64,000 bases of DNA from Streptomyces sp. NBC_01275 (lineage in GTDB: Bacteria; Actinomycetota; Actinomycetes; Streptomycetales; Streptomycetaceae). Below the pieces are notes generated by a model. That model worked only from the letters and a program-made list of their open reading frames with translations. It was not told the origin of the DNA and did no database searches. Of the stretch, positions 43,414-58,477 are shown one piece after another; position 1 is the first letter of the stretch; the number at the start of each line of letters is the position of its first letter. The position numbers were made by a program, and so were the translations under genes. The stretch covers positions 9,114,001-9,178,000 of the forward strand of contig NZ_JAPEOZ010000001.1 in assembly GCF_026340655.1 (NCBI RefSeq). Reading direction: 5' to 3'.

Positions 43414-45141
43414 TCACCGCCGGTAGAGGGTGATCGAATGCCCGACCTCGTCGACGGCCCGGCTGGAGTCGATGAGCTGCGCCAGCCGCCCCCTGGCCTT
43501 GGCCGCGGCCGAGTCCGACACGACCAGCAGCCCGCGCACCTCGTCCAGGGGCGCCCGTCGGGGATCGGAGGCGTGGATGCCGTAGTACGACGGCACCCCG
43601 CTGCCCTTGTAGACCAGCCACACCCGCTCGCCCGGGTACCGCTCCCGCAGCCGGTCGGCCAGCCTCCCGAGGTCCTGGCCCCAGTCCACGTTGGAGTCGT
43701 GCAGCCGCAGATGCGTCTGCGCGGGCCCGCCGAACGCCTCGTTGGAGTACGGCAGGTAGTACGGGTACGTCCGCAGCGAGCTGACCGCGACGAACGCCAC
43801 CAGCGCCCCCGTCACCGCCGTCACCCACCGCCGTCGCACCGTCAGGACGCACCCCGCGGCCACCGCGAGGAACATCGGCAGGAACACGGCGTACCGCGTC
43901 CCGAAGTCCCGCGACCCGGTCATCGCCGCCGCCAGCAGCACACCGGCCGGGAGCAGCACGTACGGCGCCGCGGGCCGCAGCCGCCCTACCGTCACCAGCG
44001 CGACGGCCCCGGCGCTCCACAGCGCGAGCATGCCCAGCGGGGTCTTCACCGTCAGGGCGACCGGCAGGTAGTACCAGTGCGAGCCGGTGTACACGTGCCC
44101 GAACAGGAAGCCCTGCCACGGCTGGTTCTCCAGCCCGAACTGGATCCGCATGCCGTCCCGGTAGGACTCCGGGAACGGCAGGACGTCGACCAGGAGCCCG
44201 CGCAGCCCGTGCACCACGGGGGCCTGCGCCTGCTGCGGATCCCAGCTCAGCCGGGGATCGACCACCAGATACGACGCCCAGACGACGGCCACGGCGGCCG
44301 CCGCGACGACGGCCGCCCCCAGCAGGGCCCTGCGCCACCGCTTCGGCCACAGCGACAGCACGGCCAGGGCCAGCAGCACGGGCACCGCGGGCAGCGCGCT
44401 CATCTTGGTGGCGAGCCCCGCGCCGAGCGCCGCCCCGGCGAGCGGCAGCCACAGCCGCGGCCGGTCGCCGCGGGCCCGCCACAGCAGCCACGCCGATGTC
44501 AGCACAAAGCCCGCCGCCGGGACGTCCAGCGTCGCCAGCGAGCCGTGCGCGACGACGTCGGGGGAGAAGGCGTACAGGGCGAGGGCGGTCAGCGCCGGGG
44601 CGGGCCCGGCGAGGTCGCGGGCGAAGGCGAACACCACCAGGCCGAACAGCAGCGTCAGCACGATCACCGGCAGCCGCGCCCACAGCATCAGCCGCCAGGG
44701 GTCGTTGCCCGACTCGTACAGCAGCCGCCGGCCCGCCGCTCCCTGGTCGTCGGGGAGGTCGGCGGTCCCCCGGGGATCGGCCAGCGCCACCCCGACGGCC
44801 ACGACGAGCTTGCCCAGCGGCGGGTGCTCGGGGTTGAGGCGGACGCGGTGCTCGTGCAGATACTCCGCGGCCGCGGCCACGTAGACGGGTTCGTCGATGG
44901 TCGGGGTCTGCTGCACCGCCGTCGTGACCATCGCGGCCGCCATCTGGGCGAGCAGCACGACCGTCAGCAGCGGGACCAGCCACGCACGGCGGGCACGCGG
45001 GGGCGACTGGGCCGCCCGGGCAGGAGGAACGGGCTTGAGGACCGTGTGCAGTTCGCGCGCCATCATCCGCACCGCGGTGACACCGGCCGCGCGGGGGCGG
45101 GAGCGATGCGGAGCGGCGGCCTCATGGGCCCCACTCTGCAC
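43414..45141 (-). CDS. GT39-type (PMT) integral membrane glycosyltransferase
   Basis: The 575-residue protein has about ten hydrophobic segments and the GT39/ArnT pattern: PTIDEPVYVAAAAEYLHEHR and VRLNPEHPPLGKLVVAVGVA in the first extracytoplasmic loop (with DE as the catalytic acidic pair), and later long membrane stretches such as VLLALAVLSLWPKRW. It should transfer mannose or another sugar from a polyprenyl-phosphate donor to a protein or lipid outside the membrane. It lies 21 bases downstream of the PAP2 phosphatase gene on the minus strand, so the two are one operon. An ATG pair at 45066 is a possible shorter start. Confidence 0.85.
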   Translation of the reverse strand: MQSGAHEAAAPHRSRPRAAGVTAVRMMARELHTVLKPVPPARAAQSPPRARRAWLVPLLTVVLLAQMAAAMVTTAVQQTPTIDEPVYVAAAAEYLHEHRVRLNPEHPPLGKLVVAVGVALADPRGTADLPDDQGAAGRRLLYESGNDPWRLMLWARLPVIVLTLLFGLVVFAFARDLAGPAPALTALALYAFSPDVVAHGSLATLDVPAAGFVLTSAWLLWRARGDRPRLWLPLAGAALGAGLATKMSALPAVPVLLALAVLSLWPKRWRRALLGAAVVAAAAVAVVWASYLVVDPRLSWDPQQAQAPVVHGLRGLLVDVLPFPESYRDGMRIQFGLENQPWQGFLFGHVYTGSHWYYLPVALTVKTPLGMLALWSAGAVALVTVGRLRPAAPYVLLPAGVLLAAAMTGSRDFGTRYAVFLPMFLAVAAGCVLTVRRRWVTAVTGALVAFVAVSSLRTYPYYLPYSNEAFGGPAQTHLRLHDSNVDWGQDLGRLADRLRERYPGERVWLVYKGSGVPSYYGIHASDPRRAPLDEVRGLLVVSDSAAAKARGRLAQLIDSSRAVDEVGHSITLYRR

Positions 45142-45162: not shown

Positions 45163-47079
45163 TTACCGCTTCAGGAGTCGTACCGACAGACCGTCCGCCG
45201 TGTACACAGGTACGGCCCGCAGCCGGTCGGAGTTCAGCTCCACCCGGTCGAACTGGCCGCGCAGCGCCGAGGCGTCGATCACCGGGACGGTCGTCCCCGC
45301 GGCCGGCGGCTGCTCGGAGTCCAGGCGCAGCGACAGCACCGCGCCCCGGTCGAGCCGGACCCGCCCGGACACGGTGAGGACGGGCCCGTGGTGCCCGCGC
45401 AGCGTCAGATCCAGCGTCGCGCCGGACTCCTGCGCCCACGCGCCGCGCACCCGCACCGGGGCGTCGGCGCGCAGCGTTCCGCCGGTCAGCCGCACATCGC
45501 CCTGACCGAGGGCGTTGGCGTGCCCGGCGACGAGCACGCCGTCCTCGAGCACCGTGCCGCCGTGGTAGCGGTTGTGCCCGGTCAGGGTGAGCGTGCCGGA
45601 GCCCCGCTTGGTCAGCCCGCCCTCGCCCTCGATGTCGTTGCGCCAGGCGTCGGCCGTGTGGAAGCCGCCCTTGGCCGCGTCCAGGGTGACGCTCACGTCG
45701 GACTCGAACGCGCCGTAACCGTCCGCCGCCGCGAACAGGTTGAGCCGGCCCCACTGCTCGAAGCCGTCCAGCAGGACGTACCCCGAGGGCAGCGCGGTCG
45801 TGCGCAGCACCGCGCGACGCTGCTCGGCGCTCAGATACGGCTGCCGGGTCTCCAGCAGCACCTCGGCGCCCTTGGGCACGGTGAGGGGGTCCTGCCGGCC
45901 GTGCCGGGTCAGCACATAGGTCAGCCGGGGCTCGACGGCGCGGGCGTTGGCCTCGCGGTCGGCGTAGGCGTCGCCGGCGTCGGAGTGCGCGTAGGAGTAC
46001 AGGGTGTCGGCCGTCGTGCCGGTCGCCTGCGTGAAGTAGGCGAGGGCCTGGGCGCGGGCGGCCGCCTTGAGGTCGGCGTTGGCCGGGTCGGCGAGCGTGG
46101 CCGCGGCCAGGGCGGTGGCCATGATGCGGCCGCCCAGGACGTCGACCGTGGAGTGCATGCCGGACATGATCCGGGTGTGGCTCAGCTCCAGGGCGCGCGT
46201 CACCAGCTCCTGGAAGCGCTCCGGCACGGCGTACGCGAACGCCAGCGACGCCAGGTGGAAGGCGTTGGTGTGCCCGCTGGGGAAGCCGCCGTCGTCGGCC
46301 GGGGAGGCGCCGCGCTGGCGCAGCAGCTGCGGGACCACGACGACCTTCGAGTCGTACACGGGGTAGCCGAGCGCGTCGGTCTTCCCGGTGTCGACGACCT
46401 GGCTGTCCTCGTTCATGCGCCACGGGCGCGGGTACTGGAAGGCGTACTTGCCGGGGTTGCCCGAGGCGTAGGGGCCGCGCACGGTGTCGACCAGCTTGGC
46501 GACCTGCCCGAGGTCCGAGGTGTACGAGCCCGCGCCGAGCGCGGAACCGGCCGGGGCGTCGGCGGGCACGGCGTCGCTGATCGTGGTCGCGGGCGTGGTG
46601 TCCGGCGCCGACGTGATCGACGTGACCGCCTTGGCGCCCGCCTTGTAGAGGCCGGCGAGCGGGCCCAGGCCGGCGATCATCGCGTAGCTCTGGTGCTGGC
46701 GGTCGTAGACGAACGCCTCCCTGCCCTGCGCCTCCGTGCGGGCGGTGGTGATCTTTATGGAGTAGCGCACGTTGGCCTGCAGGATCTCGGGCCGCAGCGG
46801 CGTACCGGTGTTCCACGCGGAACCCGTCTTCCACACCTGGGCGAAGCCGCCGAGCACCCGCACCACGGCGTTGGTCTCGGGCGTGAGGTTCGTCGTCAGG
46901 TTCGTCTTGTAGTCGTCGACGAACGGCAGCGGGCTCGTGGCGGCCTTGGCGTCGGCGGCGCCCAGCCAGGAGACCAGTGTCGGGGCGGCGACCAGGGCCG
47001 CCGAGCCCCCGAAGGAGACCTTGAGGAAGCGCCTCCTGTTCACGGCCGAGGGGGAGTGGGGCGCGGCGGGTGACGGCAT
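45163..47079 (-). CDS. secreted PAP2 acid phosphatase with C-terminal autotransporter-like beta repeat
   Basis: The 638-residue protein has a Tat-type signal peptide (NRRRFLKVSFGGSAALVAAP). The PAP2 site is complete: KYAFQYPRPW, FPSGHTNAFH and SHTRIMSGMHSTVDVLGG with the Lys/Arg, His and His-Asp residues in place (about 243-330). It is thus a lipid-phosphate or phosphoester phosphatase outside the membrane, distantly related to vanadium haloperoxidases. Unusually, residues about 500-545 carry a passenger-type repeat (GSGTLTLTGHNRYHGGTVLE, GVLVAGHANALGQGDVRLTG) seen mainly in Gram-negative autotransporters. It sits at the head of an operon with the GT39 gene, consistent with recycling of polyprenyl phosphate, but that link is inferred. 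Confidence 0.87.
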   Translation of the reverse strand: MPSPAAPHSPSAVNRRRFLKVSFGGSAALVAAPTLVSWLGAADAKAATSPLPFVDDYKTNLTTNLTPETNAVVRVLGGFAQVWKTGSAWNTGTPLRPEILQANVRYSIKITTARTEAQGREAFVYDRQHQSYAMIAGLGPLAGLYKAGAKAVTSITSAPDTTPATTISDAVPADAPAGSALGAGSYTSDLGQVAKLVDTVRGPYASGNPGKYAFQYPRPWRMNEDSQVVDTGKTDALGYPVYDSKVVVVPQLLRQRGASPADDGGFPSGHTNAFHLASLAFAYAVPERFQELVTRALELSHTRIMSGMHSTVDVLGGRIMATALAAATLADPANADLKAAARAQALAYFTQATGTTADTLYSYAHSDAGDAYADREANARAVEPRLTYVLTRHGRQDPLTVPKGAEVLLETRQPYLSAEQRRAVLRTTALPSGYVLLDGFEQWGRLNLFAAADGYGAFESDVSVTLDAAKGGFHTADAWRNDIEGEGGLTKRGSGTLTLTGHNRYHGGTVLEDGVLVAGHANALGQGDVRLTGGTLRADAPVRVRGAWAQESGATLDLTLRGHHGPVLTVSGRVRLDRGAVLSLRLDSEQPPAAGTTVPVIDASALRGQFDRVELNSDRLRAVPVYTADGLSVRLLKR

Positions 47080-47156
47080 GGGTGTGCCTCTCTTGAGTTC
47101 TTCGGCGGTGCGGCCAGAGGAAGGAGGTGCGATCGACTGCGGCCCATGAGCCTAGA

Positions 47157-47170
47157 GATGACTGATGACT
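47157..47170. promoter_or_regulatory. tandem gatgact repeat in the phosphatase upstream region
   Basis: The heptamer gatgact occurs twice in tandem (47157-47163, 47164-47170), 78 bases upstream of the phosphatase start. A related gatgat follows at 47181. The function is not known. I see nothing else firm in the gap 47080-47278. Confidence 0.3.
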
Positions 47171-47278
47171 TGTGGGCCGGATGATGCGTATGAGCGAAGA
47201 TCTACGGCCGGGTTGTGTCTCTTCCGCGATGGCCCGGCGGCCGGGGCATGTCTCCCGGGTGAACGGGTGGCGTGCGGT

Positions 47279-48184
47279 TCACAGCAGAGAACAGGCCAGT
47301 GCCACCGCGCCCTCGACCGGCGGCACCTCCAACCGCCGCGGGCGCGACCCGGGCAGCGCCTCGGCGAGCGCTTCGGCGAACGCCTCGTACAGCGCGGGCT
47401 GGTTGAGCACGGTGCCGCCCGCGACCACGACGTCGTCGACCGGCACCCCGCGGGCGGAGAGCCGGACGACGAGCGCGGCGAGAGCCGCACCGGCCTCCGC
47501 GATCACCTTGCGGGCGAGCGCGGAGCCGTCGGCGGCGGCCGTGAAGACGACGGGGGCACGGCGGCCCCACTCGGCGGAGACGTCCGAGGCGCCCTCCAGC
47601 GCCGCGCCGAGCGCCGGGACCTCCGGCACGTCGAACGCGGCGACGAGAGCGTGGGCGAGGGCGTCGGGGGCCTCGCCGCGGTCGTGCGCGGCCCACACGG
47701 CGCGGGCCGCCTCCCGGACCAGACCGGCGGCGCCGCCCTCGTCGCCGAGGACCGCGCCCCAGCCGCCCACCTGGACGGGATCGCCGTCGGGTGTGCGGCC
47801 CACCGCGACCGAGCCGGTGCCGGCGACCAGGCCGACCCCCTTGGCGAGTCCGGCGGCGGGGACGAGGAGTTCGGCGTCCCCTACTACGTGCGTGGGTACG
47901 CCCAGGAGTTCTCGGAGGGCGTCGCGGATGCCCGCGCACTGGCGTGGGGTCTCGCACGCGTGCCCGCCGACGGCGAGCGCGGCGGGCGGTGCGCCCTCGG
48001 GGAGCGCCTCATGGACGAGATCGGCCAGCCAGCGCGCGGCGGCGGCCGGGTCGTGCGGCCGCCAGCCGCCGCTGGCGCGGCGGTGGTCGGCCACGACACG
48101 TCCGCCCGTGAGGGCGCGGAGGTGGGTCTTGGTACCGCCCACGTCGACGCCGACCACGAGGGGGCGCGAGGAAGGGGAGTCCAA
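47279..48184 (-). CDS. BadF/BadG-type sugar kinase (N-acetylglucosamine kinase-like)
   Basis: The 301-residue ASKHA-fold protein has the phosphate-1 motif LVVGVDVGGTKTHLRAL (about residues 9-25), a later GTGSVAVGRTPDGDPVQVGG containing the Gly-rich adenosine turn (about 119-138), and VVVAGGTVLNQPALYEAF (about 253-270). This is the BcrAD_BadFG group to which actinobacterial and eukaryotic GlcNAc kinases belong. It should phosphorylate an amino or neutral sugar in the cytoplasm. Its minus-strand promoter at 48358-48386 is overlapped by a large inverted repeat, and the ROK regulator is divergent. The exact sugar is unknown. Confidence 0.85.
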   Translation of the reverse strand: MDSPSSRPLVVGVDVGGTKTHLRALTGGRVVADHRRASGGWRPHDPAAAARWLADLVHEALPEGAPPAALAVGGHACETPRQCAGIRDALRELLGVPTHVVGDAELLVPAAGLAKGVGLVAGTGSVAVGRTPDGDPVQVGGWGAVLGDEGGAAGLVREAARAVWAAHDRGEAPDALAHALVAAFDVPEVPALGAALEGASDVSAEWGRRAPVVFTAAADGSALARKVIAEAGAALAALVVRLSARGVPVDDVVVAGGTVLNQPALYEAFAEALAEALPGSRPRRLEVPPVEGAVALACSLL

Positions 48185-48348
48185 CGGATCCTCTTTCGTC
48201 GTTGTGCCAGGGCCCGATCCTGAATATCGGGCCCGGACTGCGACGGCGGGCGAACCGTGACCGGGAGAAGGCGAGTTGGCGCACTTGATGAACTAGGGAA
48301 GCCCCGGGACGGGCCTCTGGTGAAGCACGGCAGGCGAGTACCGTGAAG

Positions 48349-48386
48349 TTCGTTAGGAAGTTAACTAACGAAGTACAGTGCGTCAA
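48349..48386 (-). promoter_or_regulatory. kinase promoter overlapped by an 8+8 inverted repeat
   Basis: On the minus strand, TTGACG (48381-48386) and TAACTT (48358-48363) are separated by exactly 17 bases, an ideal promoter for the kinase. The inverted repeat ttcgttag (48349-48356), 8 bases, ctaacgaa (48365-48372) covers the -10 element and much of the spacer. A repressor bound there would block RNA polymerase. The ROK protein encoded 150 bases away is the natural candidate. The rest of the gap (48185-48527) shows no gene. Confidence 0.6.
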
Positions 48387-48527
48387 GAGTAATCGCGCCC
48401 TCGACCACCGGGAGGCCCCTGCGGGCCGTAGCGGGGCGGGAACGCGCGACGTCGGTGCATCCCATTTGCCGCAGCCCGCCGAGACGACCGGCCGGGCTCG
48501 CGGCCCGGTACCCGTGTGGGGGAAATT

Positions 48528-49673
48528 GTGGAACACGACGTGGCGGCGGCCCCCCGCCTGACCGAGAGTGCGAGCGCTGTATTCGCCGTGCTCGCCCAGG
48601 CGGGCAGCGCGACCCGGCCGCAGCTCGCGACCCTGGCGCGGCTGTCCAAGCCGACGGTGTCCGGCGCCGTGGCCGAACTCGAGGGCGCCCGGCTCGCCGC
48701 GCACTCCGGCACCGCCTCCAGCGGCACCGGCCGCTCCGCCGCCGTGTACCGTCTCGGGCCGGCCGCCGGAGCCGTCCTCGCCGTCGACCTCGGCCCCGCC
48801 CTGACCCGGGTGCGGGGCTGCGCCCTCGACGGCACCCTGCTCGCCGAGGCCACCACCGCCCGCGAGGACGCCGCCGACGCCGTACGCGAGGCGCTCGCCG
48901 CGCTGCCCGACGGTGTGCCGCTGCGCTCCATCGTCGTCGCCGTCGGCGACGTCGCCACGCGGGACGGGCGGGGCAGCGGTATGCGCCCCGCGACCGCCAA
49001 GGCGGGCCCGGTCTTCGACGCCGTGGCCGTCGCCCTGCCGCAGGGCGTCCCGGTGCACCTGGAGAACAACGTCAACTGCGCCGCGCTCGCCGAGCTGCAC
49101 GAGGGCGCCGCCCGGGGTCGGCACACCTTCGGCTATCTGCGGATCGGCGTGGGCATCGGTCTCGGCATCGTTGTCGGGGGCCAGGTGCTGCGCGGCGCGA
49201 ACGGCGCCGCCGGTGAGCTGTCCCGGCTGCCCTACCCCTGGGACGACGGCCGTGAGCCGCACCAGGAGGCCCTGGAGGAGTACATCGGCGCCCGCTCCCT
49301 GCTGCGCCGGGCCGCCGAGGCATGGCAGCGCGCGGACGGCCCGTGCCCCCGCACCACCGAGCGGCTCTTCGCCCTCGCCGGGGAGGGCGCGGCCACGGCC
49401 CGCGCCCTCGTCGGCCGGCACGCCACGGACGTGGGCCGCCTCGCCGCCGCCGTGACCGCCGTACTGGACCCCGGTCTGATCGTGCTGGGCGGCAGCACCG
49501 GCGCGGACCCGCAGCTCCTGCCCGGTGTGCGGGCCGAGCTGGCGCGGCTGAGCTGGCCCACCGACGTGGTCAGCAGCACGGTCGGGGACTCCGGCACCGT
49601 CACGGGCGCCGCACGGCTCGCGGTCGCCCGGGGAGTCCAAACCGTGACCGATGCCGCGGGGGCTAAGGATTGA
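48528..49673 (+). CDS. ROK family transcriptional regulator
   Basis: The GTG at 48528 follows ggggga at good spacing and gives 381 residues; an upstream GTG at 48516 is also in frame. The N-terminal winged helix is SATRPQLATLARLSKPTVSG (about residues 28-47), and the ROK domain follows with VLAVDLGPALTRVRGCALD (about 83), VHLENNVNCAALAELHEGAA (about 175), the YLRIGVGIGLGIVVGG ATP/sugar turn, and LIVLGGSTGADP. The CXCGxxGC zinc motif of classical ROK kinases is not present, as expected for a regulator. It lies just upstream of the import operon and divergent from the kinase, and probably represses both in the absence of the inducing sugar. Confidence 0.9.
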   Translation: MEHDVAAAPRLTESASAVFAVLAQAGSATRPQLATLARLSKPTVSGAVAELEGARLAAHSGTASSGTGRSAAVYRLGPAAGAVLAVDLGPALTRVRGCALDGTLLAEATTAREDAADAVREALAALPDGVPLRSIVVAVGDVATRDGRGSGMRPATAKAGPVFDAVAVALPQGVPVHLENNVNCAALAELHEGAARGRHTFGYLRIGVGIGLGIVVGGQVLRGANGAAGELSRLPYPWDDGREPHQEALEEYIGARSLLRRAAEAWQRADGPCPRTTERLFALAGEGAATARALVGRHATDVGRLAAAVTAVLDPGLIVLGGSTGADPQLLPGVRAELARLSWPTDVVSSTVGDSGTVTGAARLAVARGVQTVTDAAGAKD

Positions 49674-49713
49674 CGGCCTCCGACTCGGTCTGCCAATGTC
49701 CGGACAAGCGCTT
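49670..49713 (+). promoter_or_regulatory. promoter and palindromes before the sugar-binding protein gene
   Basis: TTGACG (49670-49675) and CAATGT (49694-49699) are 18 bases apart. They are followed by a 10-bp palindrome, tgtccggaca (49697-49706), and an 8-bp one, aagcgctt (49706-49713), which resembles LacI-type half-sites with a central CG. The gap continues to 49950 with no gene. Confidence 0.45.
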
Positions 49714-49950
49714 TCTAAGTCGGTCGGGACACCGGCTTGGGGTGAGCCTCCCAGCCCGTACACGACGTACGGCAACCGCACGAGGGCGTGCCCGTGCGGT
49801 GACGGCCAGGACGGCCGGGGATCTCGCCCCGCGTGGACGACGCGGCCGGGCGAGGCCGCGCCCCCGGAAAGCGAATTTCCTGCAAAATGCACCCGTGCCG
49901 CCTCGGTCGGCGCCGTGCTCCGTCCCCTACGACGAAACAAGGGATCGAAG

Positions 49951-51273
49951 ATGACCAATGTGGGTGTGCGGCGCTCCCGCCGACTCGGCCGCGGCGGCAT
50001 AGGCCGCCTGGTTCCCCTCGCTGCCGTGGCCACGGCAGGTGCCCTGCTGCTCTCCGCCTGCGGGTCGGGATCCGACTCGGGCGGGACCTCCAAGTCGCTG
50101 ACGTTCTGGATCTCCACGGTTCCGGGCCAGGACGCGGGCTGGAAGAAGATGGTGGCGCAGTACAAGAAGGAAACCGGCGTCAACGTCAAGCTCGTCAACA
50201 TCCCCTACGACGGCTACACGACGAAGCTGCACAACGCCGCGCAGGCGAACTCCCTGCCCGACGTGGCGGCCGTCCCGGCGCTGGACCCGATCTGGTCGAG
50301 CAAGCTGATCGACCTCAAGTCCATCGCCGACAACAAGACCAACAAGATCAACGCCAACTTCATCGCCAAGGACTCGTCCGGGAAGGTGCTGGCCATCCCC
50401 TCGGACGTCACCGCGTCCGGCCTGTACATCAACAAGTCGCTCTTCGAGAAGGCCGGCGTCTCCTTCCCGACCTCGCCCGACAAGACCTGGACCTGGACCG
50501 ACTTCATCAAGGCGGCGGACGAGGTCCGGGAGAAGGCCGGCGCCAAGTACTCCCTGACGTTCGACCAGTCGCCGTCCCGGCTCCGTGCCATGGTGTACGA
50601 GATGGGCGGGCAGTACGTCCACGCGGACTCCTCCGGCAAGTTCTCGGTGGACGCGGCGACCAAGAAGGCCGTGAACACCTTCGTCGGATGGAACGACGAC
50701 AAGACCATGCCGAAGTCGGTGTGGACCAGCGGCGCCGACCCGTCGGCCATGTTCCAGAGCGGTGACGTGGTCGCCTACTGGTCCGGCGTGTGGCAGGTTC
50801 CCGCCTTCGCGGAGAGCATCAAGAAGTTCGAGTGGGCGAGCGTCCCGACTCCGGCCCAGCCGGTGCAGGCCAGCGACGTCAACAGCGGCGGCATGACGGT
50901 GGGCTTCAACAACAACGCCGACGCGGCCACCGCCGCGACGAAGTTCCTGTCCTGGCTGTACGAGCCGGCCCACTACCAGGCGCTGTGCGAGGCGTCCGGG
51001 TTCCTGCCGGTCGAGAGCGGTCTGAACCCGAAGTACCCCTTCAAGTCCGCGGCGGCGCAGGCGGCGTTCAAGCTGTACAACGAGTCGATCCCGCTCTACG
51101 CCCCGATCTCGGGTTACTTCAACGGCGCGCAGACGAACTGGGTGCTGAAGGGCAAGAGCCTCACCGAGGACCCGACCAAGACGGAGCTCGGCAAGGCGAT
51201 CAACGGCCAGCAGTCGGCCGACAAGGCCCTGGAGAACATCGTGGCCGGCTACAACCAGCAGGTCGGCGGCTGA
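49951..51273 (+). CDS. CUT1 ABC transporter sugar-binding lipoprotein
   Basis: The start is the ATG at 49951; the frame upstream to 49651 is not coding. The 440-residue protein has a lipoprotein signal peptide with lipobox LLLSAC (Cys at residue 37), then an extracytoplasmic solute-binding fold: LTFWISTVPGQDAGWKKMVA, ALDPIWSSKLIDLKS, SGADPSAMFQSGDVVAYWSG and GFNNNADAATAATKFLSWLY. It captures an oligosaccharide and delivers it to the two permeases. Which sugar is unknown. It follows the ROK gene by 277 bases and precedes the permeases by 123 bases. Confidence 0.92.
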   Translation: MTNVGVRRSRRLGRGGIGRLVPLAAVATAGALLLSACGSGSDSGGTSKSLTFWISTVPGQDAGWKKMVAQYKKETGVNVKLVNIPYDGYTTKLHNAAQANSLPDVAAVPALDPIWSSKLIDLKSIADNKTNKINANFIAKDSSGKVLAIPSDVTASGLYINKSLFEKAGVSFPTSPDKTWTWTDFIKAADEVREKAGAKYSLTFDQSPSRLRAMVYEMGGQYVHADSSGKFSVDAATKKAVNTFVGWNDDKTMPKSVWTSGADPSAMFQSGDVVAYWSGVWQVPAFAESIKKFEWASVPTPAQPVQASDVNSGGMTVGFNNNADAATAATKFLSWLYEPAHYQALCEASGFLPVESGLNPKYPFKSAAAQAAFKLYNESIPLYAPISGYFNGAQTNWVLKGKSLTEDPTKTELGKAINGQQSADKALENIVAGYNQQVGG

Positions 51274-51396
51274 TCGTGGGCCAGAGGGCCGGGCGGCGGG
51301 GTCGAGACGCCGCCGCCCGGCCCTGGGCGCCCACGTGATGCCGGGCTGATGACCTGAGCCGACAGCAATCCATTCCACCAGCACGGAGTCAGGAAG

Positions 51397-52308
51397 ATGA
51401 CAAAACGCGCCTCGGACGTGTCCGCGAGCCCGCCCAGGAGACGCAGTAAGTACACGCTTGCGCCGCTCGTCCTCATCGCGGCCAATGTCGTGCTCTTCTC
51501 ACTGTTCTTCGTCTGGCCGGCGGTGATCGGGCTCGTCTACTCCTTCACGAACTACACGGGTGTGGGGGCGTTCCAGTTCATCGGACTGGACAACTACCAC
51601 AACCTGTTCGGGGACTCCACCTTCTACGACGCGCTGAGCCGGACGCTGCTGTACGCCGTGCTCTTCGTGCCGCTGAACTTCGCGGTCTCGCTGCTCACCG
51701 CGAACCTGCTGGTGAGCAAGCACGCCAAGGGTGCGTCGGTCGCCCGCGTCATCTTCTTCATCCCCTGGCTTCTGTCGCCCATCGTCGTGGGCGTCCTGTG
51801 GCGGTGGCTGTTCGGTGAGAACTTCGGACTGGTCAACTACGTCATCGAGAAGCTCGGCGGAAGTGCCGTTCCGTGGCAGTCGAACGCGGACCTGTCGTTG
51901 ATCGTGGTGGTGATGGCGGCATCCTGGGCCTGGACGGGGTTCTCGATGCTGTTGTTCATCGCGGCGATCAAGAACGTGCCGGTGTCGTACTACGAGGCGG
52001 CCTCGCTCGACGGCGCCGGCCCCTGGCGCCAGTTCTTCAGCATCACGCTGCCGAGCATCGCGCCCACCTCGTTCATCGTGATCCTGCTCAACACGATCAA
52101 CGCGATGAAGGAATACCCGGTGTTCGTCGCCCTCAACAACGGCGGACCCGGCACGTCGAACAACCTGCTTGTCCAGTACATCTACGAGACCGGCTTCAAA
52201 CGGGGCCAGATCGGCTACGCGAGCGCCGCGTCATTCGTGCTCATGCTCATCCTGATGGCCGTCGCGATCGTCCAGCTGATCGTCAACCGGCGGGTGGAGA
52301 ACCGATGA
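51397..52308 (+). CDS. CUT1 sugar ABC transporter permease 1
   Basis: The 303-residue protein has six membrane helices (VLIAANVVLFSLFFVWPAVI first), and the EAA loop YYEAASLDGAGPWRQFF near residue 198, which docks the ATPase. It is the MalF/UgpA-like partner. The ATG follows aggaag. Its stop overlaps the start of the second permease by 4 bases. No ATPase is encoded here, as is usual in Streptomyces, where a shared MsiK energises several importers. Confidence 0.93.
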   Translation: MTKRASDVSASPPRRRSKYTLAPLVLIAANVVLFSLFFVWPAVIGLVYSFTNYTGVGAFQFIGLDNYHNLFGDSTFYDALSRTLLYAVLFVPLNFAVSLLTANLLVSKHAKGASVARVIFFIPWLLSPIVVGVLWRWLFGENFGLVNYVIEKLGGSAVPWQSNADLSLIVVVMAASWAWTGFSMLLFIAAIKNVPVSYYEAASLDGAGPWRQFFSITLPSIAPTSFIVILLNTINAMKEYPVFVALNNGGPGTSNNLLVQYIYETGFKRGQIGYASAASFVLMLILMAVAIVQLIVNRRVENR

Positions 52309-53207
52309 CAACCACAGACATGCCACGCCCGGTCGACGCCGATCCCGGACGGCCCGCCTCCAAGAAGCGGCCCCGCGGGGCGGCCAGCGGCGGGCTCCGG
52401 CGGGCGGTGGCCCCGACGACACTGCTGTGGATCCTGGCGTGCCTGTACGGGTTGCCGGTGCTGTGGTTCATCCTCAGCTCCCTCAAGCCGGCCAGCGACC
52501 TGTTCTCCTATCCGCTGACGCTGGTTCCGCACAACCCCACCCTGTCGGGCTACCTGACCGCGTGGCGCAGTGCCAACTTCTCCCAGTACTTCGTCAACAC
52601 GGCCATCGTGTGCGTGATCACGACGGTCCTCACGGTGGGCGTCAGCTGCTGCACCGGGTACGCGCTGGCCAAGTACGACAACAAATGGCTCAAGGTCTTC
52701 TTCATCTGCATCCTGGCCACCACGATGCTCCCGTCCGAGGTCATGCTCGCCCCGGAGTTCCTGGTGGTCCGCAACCTCGGCCTCTACAACTCGTTCGCCG
52801 GCATCATCCTCCCGGCGGTGCTCACCGCGACCGGATGCTTCATGTTCCGCCAGTTCTTCCTGACGGTTCCCGACGAACTCGTGGAAGCCGCACGCATCGA
52901 CGGCGCCCGCGAACTGTCGATCTTCCTGCGGATCATGGTGCCGCTCTCCCGGCCCATCATGCTGACCCTCGCCATCCTGTCCTTCCAGTGGCGGTGGAAC
53001 GACTACATCTGGCCGCTGCTGATGCTCAACGACCCCAACAAGTTCACCGTGCAGATCGGCATCCAGAGCATCGTCGGCGCGCAGAACATCAACTGGTCGG
53101 TACTGCTCGGCGCATCGGTCATCTCCATGATCCCGCTGATCTTGATCTTCCTGGTCTTCCAGCGCTACGTCATGGGCGCCGACATCAATGCCGGACTGAA
53201 GGACTGA
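52305..53207 (+). CDS. CUT1 sugar ABC transporter permease 2
   Basis: The ATG at 52305 overlaps the stop of permease 1 by 4 bases; the longer frame beginning at 51873 is a shadow. The 300-residue protein is MalG-like, with six helices and the EAA loop LVEAARIDGARELSIFLRI near residue 190, and ends DINAGLKD, typical of this family. It ends 2 bases before the next gene. Confidence 0.93.
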   Translation: MTTTDMPRPVDADPGRPASKKRPRGAASGGLRRAVAPTTLLWILACLYGLPVLWFILSSLKPASDLFSYPLTLVPHNPTLSGYLTAWRSANFSQYFVNTAIVCVITTVLTVGVSCCTGYALAKYDNKWLKVFFICILATTMLPSEVMLAPEFLVVRNLGLYNSFAGIILPAVLTATGCFMFRQFFLTVPDELVEAARIDGARELSIFLRIMVPLSRPIMLTLAILSFQWRWNDYIWPLLMLNDPNKFTVQIGIQSIVGAQNINWSVLLGASVISMIPLILIFLVFQRYVMGADINAGLKD

Positions 53208-53209
53208 CC

Positions 53210-54928
53210 GTGCCCACCCCGCTCGACCACGAGTTCGTCCGCGCGGCGGCCCGTGCCGCCGACCGGCAGGCCGCCCCGCAGGCGGCCTGCCCCGACGAGG
53301 AACCCGCCGGGGCGACCCACCGCGCTCTGGCACGCCGGGTGAAGACTCTGGTCGCGGCGTACCGTTCCCCGGACTCGGCACTGCACGGCAGCGGGCAGGC
53401 CGTCGCCGCCGCGATGACCCATCTCCGCGCCCTGCGGGCCGCGCAGGCCACCACCGGCCTCTTCGCCGGCGGCGACAACGTGCAGTCACCGCCGGACTCC
53501 GCCTTCACCGTCAACGACGTGTGCGACGCGCACGTCCTCGCCGCCGCCGCGGGGCCGGAACTGCGCGAGGTCACGGCCGCGCTCGCCGAGATCGCCGGCG
53601 CCGCCTCCGGCAGTCTCCTGACGGGTGGGGTGCACACCCCGAACCACCGCTGGGAGCTGTGCGCGGCGCTGGCCCGGCTGCACCGGTCGTTCCCGGACGA
53701 CCGGCTGCTCGGCCGCGTCGAGGAGTGGCTCGCCGAGGGCGTCGACATCGACGCGGAGGGCCTGTACTCGGAACGCAGCGCCGTCTACGCGACCCACGTC
53801 TCCAACCCGTCGCTGATCCTGCTGGCCGAGGTCCTCGGCCGCGCCGACCTGCTCGACGCCGTCGAACGCAACCTCGCCACCACCCTGGACCTCATCAGGC
53901 CGGACGGCACGGTGGAGACCGTCCACTCGCGACGGCAGGACCAGAACCACCCGTTCCCGCTGGCGCCCTACCTGCCGCACTACCGGCTGCTCGCGATCCG
54001 CACCGGCCGGGGCGACTTCGCCCGGGCGGCGCGGCTGGCGGCCGCCGGCGGCATCGACGACCCCGACCTGCTCGCCCAGACCCTCCTCACCCCGGACCTG
54101 GGCCGCGCCCTGCCGGCCCCGGCCGCGCAGACACTTCCGCGCGACCGGTACCTCACCACCGCACGCCTCGCCGCACGCGCCTCCGCCACCGCGCACACGG
54201 TGGTGTACGGCGGCTCCGACGTGCCCGAGCACCGGCGCATCCGCTCGGGCCTCGCCTGCAATCCCACCTTCCTGCGTCTGTTCGCCGGCGACGCCGTCCT
54301 CGACGCGGTCCGTCTCTCGCGGGGGTTCTTCGACCTGGGCCCGTTCCGCGCCGCCGGCATGCAACGCCTCGCCGACAGCCGCCACCGGCTCACCGAGACC
54401 CTCACGGCCGCCTACTACCAGCCGCTTCCGACGGACCAGCGGCGGGACGACGGCGTCTACCGGCTGGTGGACGAGGGACGCTTCTCGGCCGCGATGGCCT
54501 TCCCGGACCGGCCTCGGGACGAGGTCTCACACACGACCCGCGTCGAGGTGGACCTGAGGGACGACGGCGCCGACCTGCGGATCGACATCAGCGGACCACG
54601 GGTGCCCTGGGCCCTCGAACTGACCTTCCGGCCGGGCGGCGTGCCAGAGGGCGCCGTACCGATCGGCGACGGACGCTGGTGCCTGACGACCGGGCCGATG
54701 ACCTACCGGGTCGGTGACGACGAGATCCGGGTCGAGGCCGACATCGAGGCAGGCGAACCGCTCGCCGGGCCGGACCGCAGCGACGTACTGCGGTACGACC
54801 CGGGTCAGGACTACACCGTGGCGGGCGGCACCGACGCGACGACCGGGAACCGCGTCTACATCGGTGGACATGGCCCGCACACACTGACCGTCGCACTGCA
54901 CGCCCGCCGGCCCGCACCCGTCGTGTGA
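53210..54928 (+). CDS. putative (alpha/alpha)-barrel carbohydrate-active enzyme, heparinase II/III-like
   Basis: The GTG at 53210, with aagga upstream, gives 572 residues. There is no signal peptide, so it is cytoplasmic. The N-terminal two-thirds is helical and repetitive, as in (alpha/alpha) toroids, with THRALARRVKTLVAAYR, HTPNHRWELCAALARLH, and DAEGLYSERSAVYATHVSNP, where Tyr, Glu, Arg and His cluster. A C-terminal beta-rich part follows (from about residue 440: TRVEVDLRDDGADLRIDIS). This resembles heparinase II/III or related lyases/hydrolases, but the family call is tentative. It is translated right after the permease gene, so it probably degrades the imported sugar. Confidence 0.75.
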   Translation: MPTPLDHEFVRAAARAADRQAAPQAACPDEEPAGATHRALARRVKTLVAAYRSPDSALHGSGQAVAAAMTHLRALRAAQATTGLFAGGDNVQSPPDSAFTVNDVCDAHVLAAAAGPELREVTAALAEIAGAASGSLLTGGVHTPNHRWELCAALARLHRSFPDDRLLGRVEEWLAEGVDIDAEGLYSERSAVYATHVSNPSLILLAEVLGRADLLDAVERNLATTLDLIRPDGTVETVHSRRQDQNHPFPLAPYLPHYRLLAIRTGRGDFARAARLAAAGGIDDPDLLAQTLLTPDLGRALPAPAAQTLPRDRYLTTARLAARASATAHTVVYGGSDVPEHRRIRSGLACNPTFLRLFAGDAVLDAVRLSRGFFDLGPFRAAGMQRLADSRHRLTETLTAAYYQPLPTDQRRDDGVYRLVDEGRFSAAMAFPDRPRDEVSHTTRVEVDLRDDGADLRIDISGPRVPWALELTFRPGGVPEGAVPIGDGRWCLTTGPMTYRVGDDEIRVEADIEAGEPLAGPDRSDVLRYDPGQDYTVAGGTDATTGNRVYIGGHGPHTLTVALHARRPAPVV

Positions 54929-54977
54929 CCCCGACGATCCACGCCATGGCCACCCCAGGCATGAAGGGTTGATCCCC

Positions 54978-56831
54978 GTGCACCTCACGCCCCCACCCCT
55001 GTACCTCACGCACCAGCGCGGCCCGCTGCACGACCTGCCGGACACAGCCGAGGCCTACGACGCGGTCCTCGCCGACGTCGCCGAGCAGGCCCTGGCCCGC
55101 CTCACGCCGGACGGCAGCCTCGAACACCCCGACTGCACGGACGACATCGGCGACACCTCCCTCGGCATCACCTCCCTCCTCGCCCTGGCCTGGGAGCGCA
55201 CCAAGGACCCGCGCCTGCCGGAGGCGGTCCGCCGCAGCCTCGCCTTCCACCTGGACCAGCGGGTCTACCGGGACGACAACCCCGGCTACCCCAACCTGAA
55301 GGTCCGCGGCTCGGGTCTGCCGTACGCCCGTTACGTCCTGGAAGCCGGCGCGCACCCCATCGGCGACTGGCCGAGCACGGCGTGGGCGCTGCTCCAGGCG
55401 GTGAACGTGCTCGACGCGGCGGACGGGCTGGTCGACGACGGCCGGCGCGCCGAACTGCTGGAGGTGGCGCACGGCTACTGGCGCTGGCTGACCGAGGCGA
55501 CCTTCTTCAACCCGCAGGAGGCCGGCAACCAGGCGATCGGCTGCGTCGTGGGCGGCCTGATGCTGGCCCGCCATCTGCCCCCGGACGAGGGCGGGCCGGT
55601 CCGGGCGCGGGCGCTGGAGCTGTACGCCGAGAAGATCCGCGCCCACCGGGTCCGCGACCGGGGCGCGCTGCTGCCGCCCGAGCACGGCGGCGCGTACGAC
55701 AACAACTACGGCCCGATCTCCCTGTCCTTCCTCGCCCAGGCCCACCGGGTCAGCGGCGAGGAGGTGTTCGCCGAGGACGGCGACGCGCTCGCCCGGTACA
55801 TCGACGCCCGCCTCACCGGCGGCGGCTTCGACAACGGCGGCCCCCGCTACAGCGAGCAGCACTCGGCCTTCGAGTCGGTGCTCGGCCTGCGGTACTTCGG
55901 CGCCCGGATCGGCTCCGACCTGGGCCGCTACCGGGGCGACAGCCGCTGGGCCCGGCACGCGGTCAAGCCGGACGGCGGGGTCGACGGCCACTTCGCGTGG
56001 ATGCTGGTCTGGCAGATCCAGGACACCACGCCCTGGACCCGCACACCCGCGAGCGGCTCCGCACGGCACCAGTTGCGCGCCGGCACGGTCTCGGTGGCCT
56101 TCGACGACCACCTGACCCCGGCGGTCGTCGAGGCGGCGGGCGCCTACTGGCTGGCGGCCGCCGTCAACCGCCAGCACGGCTTCGGACCCGTCACCGACGG
56201 CTTCCTGCTGTGCCGCCCCATGGGCGAGGTGCGCGTGCGCGACGTCCACGCCGACGGCCTGACGGCCAAGCTCGTCACCAAGCCGGTCGTCGGCCGCGAC
56301 CACGTCCTTCGTTATGTGCGCTCCCTGTACGTCACCGACGGCACGACCCTGTGGACCGCGGTCGCGGTCGAACGCCTCACCGGCACCCCGTACCTGCTGG
56401 CCGGCCTGCCGTACGCCGAGGACGACGGCGACCGGGTCCGGCGTATCGCGCGGGCGGCCGTGTCCTCGGCGGGCGCGGTGCGCCTGACCCACCCCGCGGC
56501 ACAGGGCGTGGAGTACTTCGACGCCCGCGCCGAACTCACCCAGGAACAGGCCGCCTTCGCCCTCGCCGCCGACCCGCGCGGCTACGGAAACCCCGACGAG
56601 GGCTGGCTCCACCTGGTCGGCTCCACGGCGCTGGAGGCGGACCCGATCGCGGACGCGCCGGACGACCTGCACGTCTTCGCGGTGCGCTACGGAACCGAGG
56701 AGCCGCTCACGGTGTCGGTGCGGCGGGACGCGGCGGGGCTGACCGTGCGGACGGACGCGTTCACGGCCGTCCTCGGCGGCGAAGACGCCTACGGAGAACC
56801 GGAGTTGACGCTGACCGCGGCCGACGCCTGA
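54978..56831 (+). CDS. putative (alpha/alpha)-barrel protein of unassigned family in the sugar operon
   Basis: The GTG at 54978 follows gaaggg; a TTG at 54969 is also in frame. The 617-residue product has no signal peptide. Residues about 10-330 look like an (alpha/alpha) barrel with many aromatic and acidic residues (TEATFFNPQEAGNQAIGC, LLPPEHGGAYDNNYGPISLS, FDNGGPRYSEQHSAFESVLG), and the C-terminal half is beta-rich. I do not recognise a named glycosidase or lyase family. It is the last gene of the import operon, 49 bases after the previous enzyme, and presumably acts on the same imported glycan. Confidence 0.75.
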   Translation: MHLTPPPLYLTHQRGPLHDLPDTAEAYDAVLADVAEQALARLTPDGSLEHPDCTDDIGDTSLGITSLLALAWERTKDPRLPEAVRRSLAFHLDQRVYRDDNPGYPNLKVRGSGLPYARYVLEAGAHPIGDWPSTAWALLQAVNVLDAADGLVDDGRRAELLEVAHGYWRWLTEATFFNPQEAGNQAIGCVVGGLMLARHLPPDEGGPVRARALELYAEKIRAHRVRDRGALLPPEHGGAYDNNYGPISLSFLAQAHRVSGEEVFAEDGDALARYIDARLTGGGFDNGGPRYSEQHSAFESVLGLRYFGARIGSDLGRYRGDSRWARHAVKPDGGVDGHFAWMLVWQIQDTTPWTRTPASGSARHQLRAGTVSVAFDDHLTPAVVEAAGAYWLAAAVNRQHGFGPVTDGFLLCRPMGEVRVRDVHADGLTAKLVTKPVVGRDHVLRYVRSLYVTDGTTLWTAVAVERLTGTPYLLAGLPYAEDDGDRVRRIARAAVSSAGAVRLTHPAAQGVEYFDARAELTQEQAAFALAADPRGYGNPDEGWLHLVGSTALEADPIADAPDDLHVFAVRYGTEEPLTVSVRRDAAGLTVRTDAFTAVLGGEDAYGEPELTLTAADA

Positions 56832-56834
56832 CGC

Positions 56835-57476
56835 TCACCCCGGGCGGATCACCAGGTCCGCCCGGTCCCGCGTCGTCGCCACCAGCTCGGCGTTGCGCTG
56901 GTCGGTCCGCAGCACCCACGCCACCGCCTCCTCGTGCGCCTTGCCGAACTCCTCGTGCCGGGCGACCAGTCGGCGCAAGCGCTCGTCCTCCGCCAGCTCA
57001 CAGAACCAGACCTCGTCCAGCGCGGCCCGCACCCGCGTCCACGCGCCGGCGCCGAGCAGGAGGTAGTTGCCCTCCGTCACGATCAGCCGGGCGGTCGGCG
57101 GCACCGGCACCGCGCCCGCGATCGGCTGTTCCAGCACCCGTTCGAAGCCGGGCGCGTACACGAGGTCGTCGCCGTCCCCTTCCTCTCGCAGCCGTCGGAG
57201 CAGGGCCGCGTACCCGGCCGCGTCGAAGGTGTCGGGCGCGCCCTTGCGGTCGCGGCGGCCGAGGCGGTCCAGCTCGGCGTCGGCGAGATGGAAGCCGTCC
57301 ATGGGGATGTGCGCGACCCACGGCTCCCCGGCGCCGTTCAACTCCCGTACCAGACGCTCGGCGAGGGTCGTCTTGCCCGCGCCGGGACTGCCGGCGATGC
57401 CGAGCAGCGCGCGTCGGCGGCCGTCCCCGGCGAGGGAGCGGGCGCGCAGGAGCAGATCGTCGAAGGTCAGTGACAC
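56835..57476 (-). CDS. nucleoside/nucleotide kinase family P-loop protein
   Basis: The 213-residue protein has a Walker A GIAGSPGAGKTTLAERLVRE (residues 26-45), IPMDGFHLADAELDRLG (about 59-75) and VTEGNYLLLGAGAWTRV (about 133-149). This matches the uridine kinase/phosphoribulokinase-like group annotated as nucleoside or nucleotide kinase, some of which phosphorylate fructose or other small substrates. It ends 3 bases from the convergent operon above, so it need not share its regulation. The substrate is unknown. Confidence 0.85.
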   Translation of the reverse strand: MSLTFDDLLLRARSLAGDGRRRALLGIAGSPGAGKTTLAERLVRELNGAGEPWVAHIPMDGFHLADAELDRLGRRDRKGAPDTFDAAGYAALLRRLREEGDGDDLVYAPGFERVLEQPIAGAVPVPPTARLIVTEGNYLLLGAGAWTRVRAALDEVWFCELAEDERLRRLVARHEEFGKAHEEAVAWVLRTDQRNAELVATTRDRADLVIRPG

Positions 57477-57601: not shown

Positions 57602-58477
57602 GTGGGCATCGAGGGGAGTGGCATGGTGGGCACTGGGCACGACGGTCGGCCGGCGGACGCGTTCTTCACGCCGGGAGGCTCGTCCTTCAGCGACTTCCTG
57701 GCGGTGCACCGACCCGAACTGCTCCCGACGCGCCGCCCGTTCCCCGACGGCGTCCGGGCCGCCCCGGACCGGTTCCCGCACGGCACGACGGTGCTGGCCC
57801 TCGTCTACCGCGACGGCGTGCTGATCGCCGGCGACCGCCGGGCCACCATGGGCAACGTCATCGCCCAGCGCGACCTGGAGAAGGTGCACCCGGCCGACGA
57901 CCACACCGCCGTCGCCTTCGCCGGCACCGTCGGACTCGCCGTGGACATGGTGAAGCTGTACCAGGTGGAGCTGACGCACTTCGAGAAGGTCGAGGGCATC
58001 CCCATGACCCTCGGCGCGAAGGCGCGCCGGCTGGCCACGATGATCCGGCAGAACCTCGGCCAGGCCATGCAGGGCCTCGCCGTCGTCCCCCTCCTCGCGG
58101 GCTACGACACCACCGCGGCCCGGGGCGCCAGGGGCCGTATCTTCAGCTTCGACGTGGTCGGCGGGCTGTACGAGAAGTCGCCCTTCCACGCCGAGGGCTC
58201 CGGCTCCCCCTACGCCCACGGCGCGCTGAAGAAGCTGTACCGCGCCGACATGACCCGGCGCGAGGCGTCCCTGGCCGCCCTGCAGGCGCTGTACGACGCG
58301 GCCGACGACGACTCCGCCACCGGCGGGCCCGACATCAGCCGCCGGATCTTCCCGATCGTGTCCGTCATCACCGAGGACGGCTTCGAGCGGCTGCCCGAGG
58401 CGGAGACCGAGCAGCTCAGCCGCGAGATGGTCGAGCAGCGCCACACCAGGCCGGACGGGCCGAACGCCACCGCGTGA
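57602..58477 (+). CDS. prcB: 20S proteasome beta subunit (stand-alone copy)
   Basis: The 291-residue protein has a 61-residue propeptide ending PHG, and the mature chain begins TTVLALVYRDGVLIAGDRRA, so the nucleophile is Thr62. The conserved active-site Asp17 and Lys33 (mature numbering) are present (AGDRR and DLEKV), as are LPLLAGYD and the C-terminal YDAADDDSATGGPDISRRIF, which is diagnostic of actinobacterial PrcB. It should be a threonine protease active as a 7-mer ring with PrcA. Neither prcA nor pup lies next to it: its neighbours are a small kinase and an ArsR gene. The GTG at 57602 lies after ggag; an ATG at 57623 would shorten the propeptide by seven residues. Confidence 0.93.
   Translation: MGIEGSGMVGTGHDGRPADAFFTPGGSSFSDFLAVHRPELLPTRRPFPDGVRAAPDRFPHGTTVLALVYRDGVLIAGDRRATMGNVIAQRDLEKVHPADDHTAVAFAGTVGLAVDMVKLYQVELTHFEKVEGIPMTLGAKARRLATMIRQNLGQAMQGLAVVPLLAGYDTTAARGARGRIFSFDVVGGLYEKSPFHAEGSGSPYAHGALKKLYRADMTRREASLAALQALYDAADDDSATGGPDISRRIFPIVSVITEDGFERLPEAETEQLSREMVEQRHTRPDGPNATA

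Follow-up and report, generated by a model that had tools for sequence, protein, structure and literature searches.

A Streptomyces importer unit with two unnamed enzyme families, the first of predicted polysaccharide-lyase fold, and a proposed uronic-acid glycan as substrate

The window analysed here is a stretch of 64,000 nucleotides from the 10.4-Mb genome of Streptomyces sp. NBC_01275 (contig NZ_JAPEOZ010000001.1, positions 9,114,001 to 9,178,000), and our subject is a gene unit at positions 45163-56831 of the window. The unit is of a known kind, consisting of a regulator, an importer and intracellular enzymes, and it contains two enzymes, A and B, each from an unnamed family; its substrate is proposed. 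Our preferred reading, which we regard as evenly poised between right and wrong, is that the unit imports a uronic-acid oligosaccharide, inositol-linked at least in relatives, and cleaves it inside the cell. Supported directly are the gene content and gene order, the conservation of an operator, the predicted fold of A, the lack of a match to either enzyme in two family libraries, and the co-localisation, outside Streptomyces, of importer and A with genes for inositol catabolism and α-mannosidase. A sequence-only reading of the window had described a ROK-linked importer unit without an ATPase, with two enzymes and a kinase; that description was borne out, and all reported genes were found in place.

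Enzyme A (53210-54928, forward strand, 572 amino acids) is a protein of predicted polysaccharide-lyase fold. It had no Pfam match at E up to 1 and none in NCBIfam, and a family search to E 10 with 30 of its relatives (alignment A1, from which the homologues with internal stops, L067 and L068, were excluded) returned weak unrelated matches and no lyase model. Neither A nor B matched an NCBIfam lyase model at E 1, and neither gave a profile match to PF07940 (heparinase II/III) or to other lyase models of Pfam and NCBIfam. At least 1218 relatives of A were found at E ≤ 0.001 in a protein search with 8000 scored candidates; the names shown among the 120 relatives listed for each of A and B were 'hypothetical', 'putative' or uncharacterised, apart from one UniRef label 'Heparinase' (P0189). 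The structural model of A (predicted local distance difference test, pLDDT, 87.7) matched the toroid plus antiparallel β-sheet polysaccharide-lyase fold in Foldseek with E 1.8e-11, its 40 best whole-chain structural matches were lyases, and heparinase III was its best VIA match, tied with others. On this model A is assigned to the lyase fold, and lyase activity is predicted. H142, N145-H146, R147, W148, E188, R189, Y193, R241-Q245 and D337 were present in 115 of 115 sequences; residue counts here and below cover distinct matches longer than 430 residues (114 for A and 62 for B) plus the window's own protein. By eye, the PF07940 proteins of relatives carry Asn and Tyr motifs comparable to those of A, and no signal peptide was seen on the window's A or B. 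Two A paralogues in alignment A1 have N-termini that look, again by eye, like twin-arginine translocation (Tat) signals. Searches by single sequence or profile gave no PDB relatives of A or B; matches to an arginine repressor, a designed repeat protein, PSI-G and OspA were rejected as chance or low complexity.

Enzyme B (54978-56831, forward strand, 617 amino acids) likewise had no Pfam family at E up to 1 and a single, chance NCBIfam match (E 0.12); 33 relatives (alignment A2) searched against families to E 10 gave weak unrelated matches and no lyase model, and at least 477 relatives were found in the protein search at the threshold used for A. Its best Foldseek hit (E 2.1e-7) was the PL15 alginate lyase 3a0o, with TMq 0.34 and a root-mean-square deviation (rmsd) of 16.9; B probably has the same lyase fold as A, on a weaker model. 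N184 and Y240 are present in 63 of 63 sequences and H400 in 62 of 63, with Y244 as an alternative tyrosine. In lyases of polysaccharide lyase (PL) families PL12, PL15, PL17, PL21, PL35 and PL39 the third catalytic residue is a β-domain histidine (PMC12088678). Subtraction on the Asn rows of Table 4 of that paper, with PL8 and PL23 excluded as differing, places the tyrosine 53-57 residues after the neutralising asparagine and the histidine 130-166 after the tyrosine. The intervals in B, 56 from N184 to Y240 and 160 from Y240 to H400, lie within both ranges by sequence spacing only; B is rich in conserved histidines, so a histidine at this spacing could be due to chance.

The two proteins had earlier been called unassigned barrel enzymes matching no nameable family, the second perhaps a new one. 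The absence of a family name holds in Pfam and NCBIfam, and at the sequence level it holds for A as much as for B; the predicted fold, by contrast, is that of the known polysaccharide-lyase toroid for A, on a good model, and probably for B, on a weak one. A characterised family matching both proteins would have counted against the proposal; structure prediction and family searches produced none.

Loci of A homologues were compared in a scan of named genomes, in which the 80 best-ranked A loci, out of at least 478 and some of them cut by contig ends, comprised 51 from Streptomyces and 29 from Microbacterium, Phytoactinopolyspora, Tessaracoccus, Actinoplanes, Leifsonia, Nonomuraea, Micromonospora and one unplaced actinomycete. 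The control set consisted of 40 windows, 20 kb each and placed at round coordinates, from ten genomes; under identical queries and thresholds, every query gave 0 of 40. No p-value is given, since the A loci are interrelated and were selected for being the closest to A. An importer of the same type adjoins A in 28 of the 29 loci outside Streptomyces, with permeases 54-78% identical to those of the window. A glycoside hydrolase family 38 (GH38) α-mannosidase gene occurs in 12, each time between permease 2 and A; iolC and iolD together in 7, and at least two of iolB, iolC, iolD, iolE and iolG in 10; a Gfo/Idh/MocA oxidoreductase gene (GFO3) in 12 and a BadF kinase gene in 3. One example each of iolB, iolC, iolD and iolG scored above its NCBIfam cut-off, and an iolE-like gene scored below. 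In an Actinoplanes locus (L174) the co-directional genes, separated by small gaps, run iolC, Cgl0159-like, iolB, iolD, iolE-like, iolG, DUF6807, A, solute-binding protein, permease 1, permease 2, PAP2-type, oxidoreductase; the frame call there joins permease 2 with the PAP2 gene. In a Microbacterium locus (L155), A overlaps a Cgl0159-like gene, which precedes iolE-like and iolG genes. Ten loci of one family (L117-L126, nine genomes), which overlap the 29 in at least one case, held GH38 in 6, the BadF kinase in 5 and iolD in 2; L105, L126 and L170 represent the same place of one genome, with 100% identical neighbours, as do L106 and L125. At the first of these places, in Microbacterium suaedae, an NPP1-domain gene, which we take to belong to the NLP family, adjoins the A homologue, and Gfo/Idh/MocA and DUF993 genes lie on its other side. 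Binding to glycosyl inositol phosphorylceramide (GIPC) lipids of plants is reported for NLP proteins (PMC6743777).

Within Streptomyces the unit is syntenic. Kinase, ROK regulator, binding protein, both permeases, A, B and a flanking nucleoside-kinase gene each occur once, in the window's order and strands, in 38 of the 51 loci, so that the absence of synteny, named beforehand as the outcome that would tell against a unit, was not seen. A match to B at 50% identity is present in 42 of the 51 and absent from 9, with 38 passing a stricter length test, and in the compared loci A and B overlap or sit within about 110 bases of each other. A PAP2 phosphatase homologue is present at 49 of these 51 loci and, outside Streptomyces, at 5 of the 29. 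Among 295 genomes of the genus, B is matched in 69 and A in 63, about one fifth in each case, and both in 36; by hand count, the 69 divide into 61 in which B is near full length (in one case with an insertion) and 8 that hold fragments only, and the 63 into 50 in which A is near full length and at least 80% identical, 11 with a paralogue at 40-43% and 2 with parts only. Some Streptomyces loci of the two scans may be from the same genomes. The fragmented copies of B were in G193, G431, G440, G446, G477, G478, G622 and G628, several of them right behind a near-full-length A. Paralogues of A in Streptomyces (L067-L077, about 40% identity) lie in another cluster with a different importer; examples of this cluster also hold a MusI-like membrane protein, Gfo/Idh/MocA oxidoreductases, DUF6807 and a cupin.

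A second type of locus separates the two enzymes. In 8 of 9 loci fetched for B from genomes without a window-type A (L078-L086), and in L096 and L100, the ROK gene and B (with phosphatase and kinase where the stretch reaches) accompany another importer, 28-38% identical, and A is absent; in L082 no importer adjoins B. Importer and A are swapped at the same chromosomal place in L078-L086, L096 and L100, with ROK and B, and mostly also the phosphatase, kinase and operator, remaining. In these comparisons A travels with the window-type importer, and B keeps to the regulator and kinase. Other arrangements were also found: L097 has the window's importer and B without A, and L103 and L104 have A without B. 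Outside Streptomyces, B was found in none of the 29 named loci and none of L117-L126 (all fetched for A), and a limited sample of 346 genomes of the phylum gave B in no genus except the window's own.

Enzymes of the fold predicted for A generally act on uronic acids. We reasoned that the fold points to a uronic acid and the neighbourhood to inositol, α-mannose and sometimes phosphate, arabinose and galactose, and hence to an inositol-linked uronic-acid glycan. We infer, as follows, what the substrate is, which chemical steps it goes through and in what order, that the phosphatase is exported and that the unit is repressed. The PAP2 phosphatase, if exported, would act extracellularly to take off a phosphate; the glycan would then be imported by the lipoprotein and two permeases, powered by an MsiK-type ATPase encoded elsewhere; A and B, both of lyase fold and intracellular, would split bonds adjoining the uronic acid by β-elimination; and the NagK-like kinase would phosphorylate a released sugar. 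The ROK protein would repress both transcription units through a single palindrome until a sugar signal appears.

A more specific version, which we offer tentatively and hold to be somewhat improbable, is that the loci serve the catabolism of the glycan head group carried by GIPC sphingolipids of plants. Heparinase III cuts the bond between N-acetylglucosamine (GlcNAc) and glucuronic acid (GlcA) in GlcNAc-α1,4-GlcA. The GIPC head group is GlcNAc(α1-4)GlcA(α1-2)inositol-phosphate, or mannose (Man)-GlcA in Arabidopsis leaves, and larger GIPCs (series E) carry Man, galactose (Gal) and arabinose (Ara) further out (PMC8099651, PMC9113257). This version was considered because GlcA, inositol, phosphate, Man, Ara and Gal all occur in that head group, matching the fold and the neighbouring genes. 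Taken one at a time, PAP2 could act on the phosphate, an arabinofuranosidase and β-galactosidases on outer Ara and Gal, GH38 on α-Man, and heparinase-III-like A on an N-acetylhexosamine- or hexose-1,4-GlcA bond, with the NagK-like kinase also fitting and the iol genes dealing with the inositol; the NPP1 gene of the Microbacterium suaedae locus would fit as well. No single locus holds all of the fitting genes. A literature search, in the excerpts it returned, turned up no bacterium that uses the GIPC head-group glycan, which is weak evidence of absence.

Several results weigh against the reading of an inositol-linked uronic-acid substrate. A has no β-domain histidine conserved at 80% or more among 115 sequences, so the canonical Asn-Tyr-His triad is absent, and its Asn-Tyr spacing is 48, as against 53-57 in the tabulated lyases; since A fails the triad, it is assigned to no PL family, and on this evidence it is best described as lyase-like in predicted fold and in the toroid half of the active site. 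The model of B is weak (pLDDT 71.9, predicted template modelling score 0.54), and its whole-chain structural alignments had rmsd values of 15 to 20 Å. Profile comparison gave no match between A and B, and none between either of them and the PF07940 proteins of relatives, whose alignments are shallow. A PF07470-type enzyme (GH88 and GH105) is the usual step after a lyase, and no match to PF07470 was found in the genome. The compared loci are not independent, with several close Microbacterium and Actinoplanes species among them, and the controls comprise 32 windows in eight genomes of one family and 8 in two genomes of the window's genus, with none from Actinoplanes, Micromonospora or Nonomuraea. 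Neither iol genes nor GH38 adjoin A in any of the 51 Streptomyces loci; together with the absence of B elsewhere, this means that the window is tied to inositol solely by the shared importer type and by A homologues of about 50% identity. Elsewhere in the window's genome there are three IolD genes over the cut-off and three GH38 genes.

The absence of iol genes beside A in Streptomyces also speaks for an inositol-free substrate, namely a uronic-acid oligosaccharide such as an arabinogalactan, gum or glycosaminoglycan-like fragment, with the inositol genes being neighbours for other reasons. Genes for the arabinofuranosidase ArfA (7), GH2 (8) and GH42 (5) lie near A among the 29 loci, and a known lyase takes rhamnose off glucuronate in gum arabic (PMC8377490, PMC10951650). 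We nevertheless consider this unlikely: in Actinoplanes L174 the iol genes form one co-directional run that includes A and the importer, in L155 they are coupled to A by overlap, and inositol genes were found in no control window. The opposite simplification, a mannosyl-inositol without uronic acid (from fungal mannosyl inositol phosphorylceramide, actinobacterial phosphatidylinositol mannosides or a glycosylphosphatidylinositol anchor), would account for the GH38 gene that separates permease from A at 12 of the 29 loci and for inositol genes near A in 10. Against it, the predicted fold of A belongs to enzymes generally acting on uronic acids, and GH38 is beside A in none of the 51 Streptomyces loci; we think it distinctly unlikely, even with mannosyl inositol phosphorylceramide typical of fungi (PMC9113257).

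The remaining alternatives concern the enzymes themselves. Proteins of lyase fold could be glycoside hydrolases or uronyl epimerases; the exclusively lyase character of the 40 best whole-chain matches of A, and the invariance of the toroid Asn, His and Tyr, make this doubtful for A and B. B might instead be dispensable or decaying, the working unit being the importer and A. Fragments alone remain in 8 of the 69 genomes with a B match, B is unmatched in 9 of the 51 Streptomyces A loci at 50% identity, and it is missing from all 29 loci elsewhere; yet B is near full length in the other 61 genomes, its key residues are conserved in the 63 aligned sequences, and it is also found beside the same ROK and kinase genes with a different importer and no A, so that decay seems to us very unlikely.

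The proposed regulation centres on a palindrome (48344-48377, neither strand; core TTCGTTAGGAAGTTAACTAACGAA at 48349-48372) found by inverted-repeat search between the divergent kinase and ROK genes and likely to be the ROK operator. Its arms, 48344-48356 and 48365-48377, are 85% complementary. The 24-bp palindrome TTCGTTAGGAARTTAACTAACGAA, or a close variant, was present in 67 of 67 distinct kinase-ROK gaps (68 of 91 sequences were used, those in which kinase and ROK exceed 60% identity and lie 50 to 900 bases apart), and a genome-wide search allowing up to 3 mismatches gave this single site, a reversed control pattern giving 0. No second copy was found upstream of the binding-protein gene, the window holding one site at up to 3 mismatches. 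Conservation and uniqueness between divergent genes are what is expected of a ROK operator, and the palindrome is likely a candidate operator through which the ROK protein would act on both divergent units. The sequence-only reading had placed a large inverted repeat over the kinase promoter; the repeat was confirmed, whereas a consensus scan of 47000-57000, including the palindrome, gave no sigma-70-like promoter. A second structure, a stem-loop with 19-base arms that are 95% complementary (51285-51324, forward strand), lies between the binding protein and permease 1. Across 65 distinct sequences of this gap (relatives plus the window, with binding protein and permease above 80% identity) the median folding energy was -69.5 kcal/mol, with a range of -81.7 to -30.2; the stem-loop may stabilise the binding-protein message.

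The importer is encoded by a lipoprotein solute-binding protein gene (49951-51273, forward strand; SBP_bac_8 109.6 bits, SBP_bac_1 108.1; lipobox LSAC by eye) and two ABC permease genes (51397-52308 and 52305-53207, both forward; PF00528 69.9 and 69.3 bits), which overlap by 4 bases. The earlier observation that the unit has no ATPase stands: none of 139 genome-wide matches to a UgpC-type model falls within 45163-56831, and one gene elsewhere in the genome passes the curated cut-off of that model. With a binding protein, two permeases, no local ATPase and a UgpC/MsiK-type ATPase elsewhere, the genes support an ATPase-less importer of CUT1 type, with putative dependence on MsiK. Upstream are the ROK-family regulator (48516-49673, forward; PF00480 92.5 bits against a cut-off of 22.9), whose N-terminal MarR_2 match of 20.3 bits is under the cut-off of 27, and the divergent BadF/BcrAD-type, NagK-like sugar kinase (47279-48184, reverse; PF01869 67.6 bits, cut-off 31.5). 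The kinase fits only the broad BadF/BcrAD domain model of Pfam and is not assigned as NagK, scoring 50.8 bits against the NCBIfam equivalog NagK_SO3507 (NF046058), far under its cut-off of 370. Kinase, ROK protein, binding protein and both permeases were all above their Pfam cut-offs. The kinase strand also carries, about 200 bases further downstream, the gene of a PAP2-superfamily phosphatase with a PATR repeat (45163-47079, reverse, 638 amino acids; PF01569 53.4 bits, cut-off 27.2; PF12951 37.8, cut-off 27), whose N-terminus reads by eye as Tat-like (RRRFLK); the sequence-only reading had not included it, and it is counted in the unit because the gene is conserved at the loci.

Genes on either side of the unit were also recorded. 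A nucleoside/nucleotide kinase-family gene (56835-57476, reverse; NF006743 311 bits, cut-off 227) is convergent with enzyme B and is its usual downstream neighbour, present in 50 of 51 Streptomyces loci even where B is missing. Nearby is a gene for a proteasome-subunit-family protein (57602-58477, forward; PF00227 130 bits), and a PMT-type mannosyltransferase-like gene (43414-45141, reverse; PF02366 58 bits) adjoins the phosphatase.

The unit thus brings forward two unnamed families, each in about one fifth of 295 genomes of the genus, with A also in several other actinobacterial genera. Were the lyase assignment true, the uronate-lyase fold would extend to small imported glycans inside the cell; were the inositol link true, soil- and plant-associated bacteria would have a route to the use of inositol glycolipids. 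GIPCs are described as the predominant lipid of the plant plasma membrane's outer leaflet (PMC7980081). A single operator, an importer and two enzymes make the idea directly testable in laboratory Streptomyces.

Compared with known systems, the two-domain fold of heparinase III (PL12), the GAGases (PL35), PL33 and the oligo-alginate and exo-heparin lyases of PL15 and PL17 is predicted for A and probably for B; the toroid Asn and Tyr are shared too, and B also has a His at the spacing of the β-domain His. A and B differ from these lyases in about 10% identity in structural matches, in matching no family model, in having no signal peptide visible by eye and in sitting behind an importer, and A in its lack of a conserved β-domain His. 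L-rhamnose-α-1,4-D-glucuronate lyases, which are also found in PL27, act on gum substrates and are not known to have an importer or inositol link. Those lyases constitute PL42 (PMC10951650), and no sequence match of A or B to them was seen. A, the importer, GH38 and PAP2 are not known to be part of the described inositol pathway. In some loci of Actinoplanes, Microbacterium and Micromonospora, the actinobacterial myo-inositol operon (iolB, iolC, iolD, iolE, iolG) is near or joined to A and its importer type; it differs in not being adjacent in the 51 Streptomyces loci. Streptomyces CUT1 importers, for example DasABC, are energised by MsiK (PMC6167110); the importer of this unit has in common with them a lipoprotein and two permeases, no ATPase found locally and a UgpC-type ATPase elsewhere, and differs in being followed by two lyase-like enzymes.

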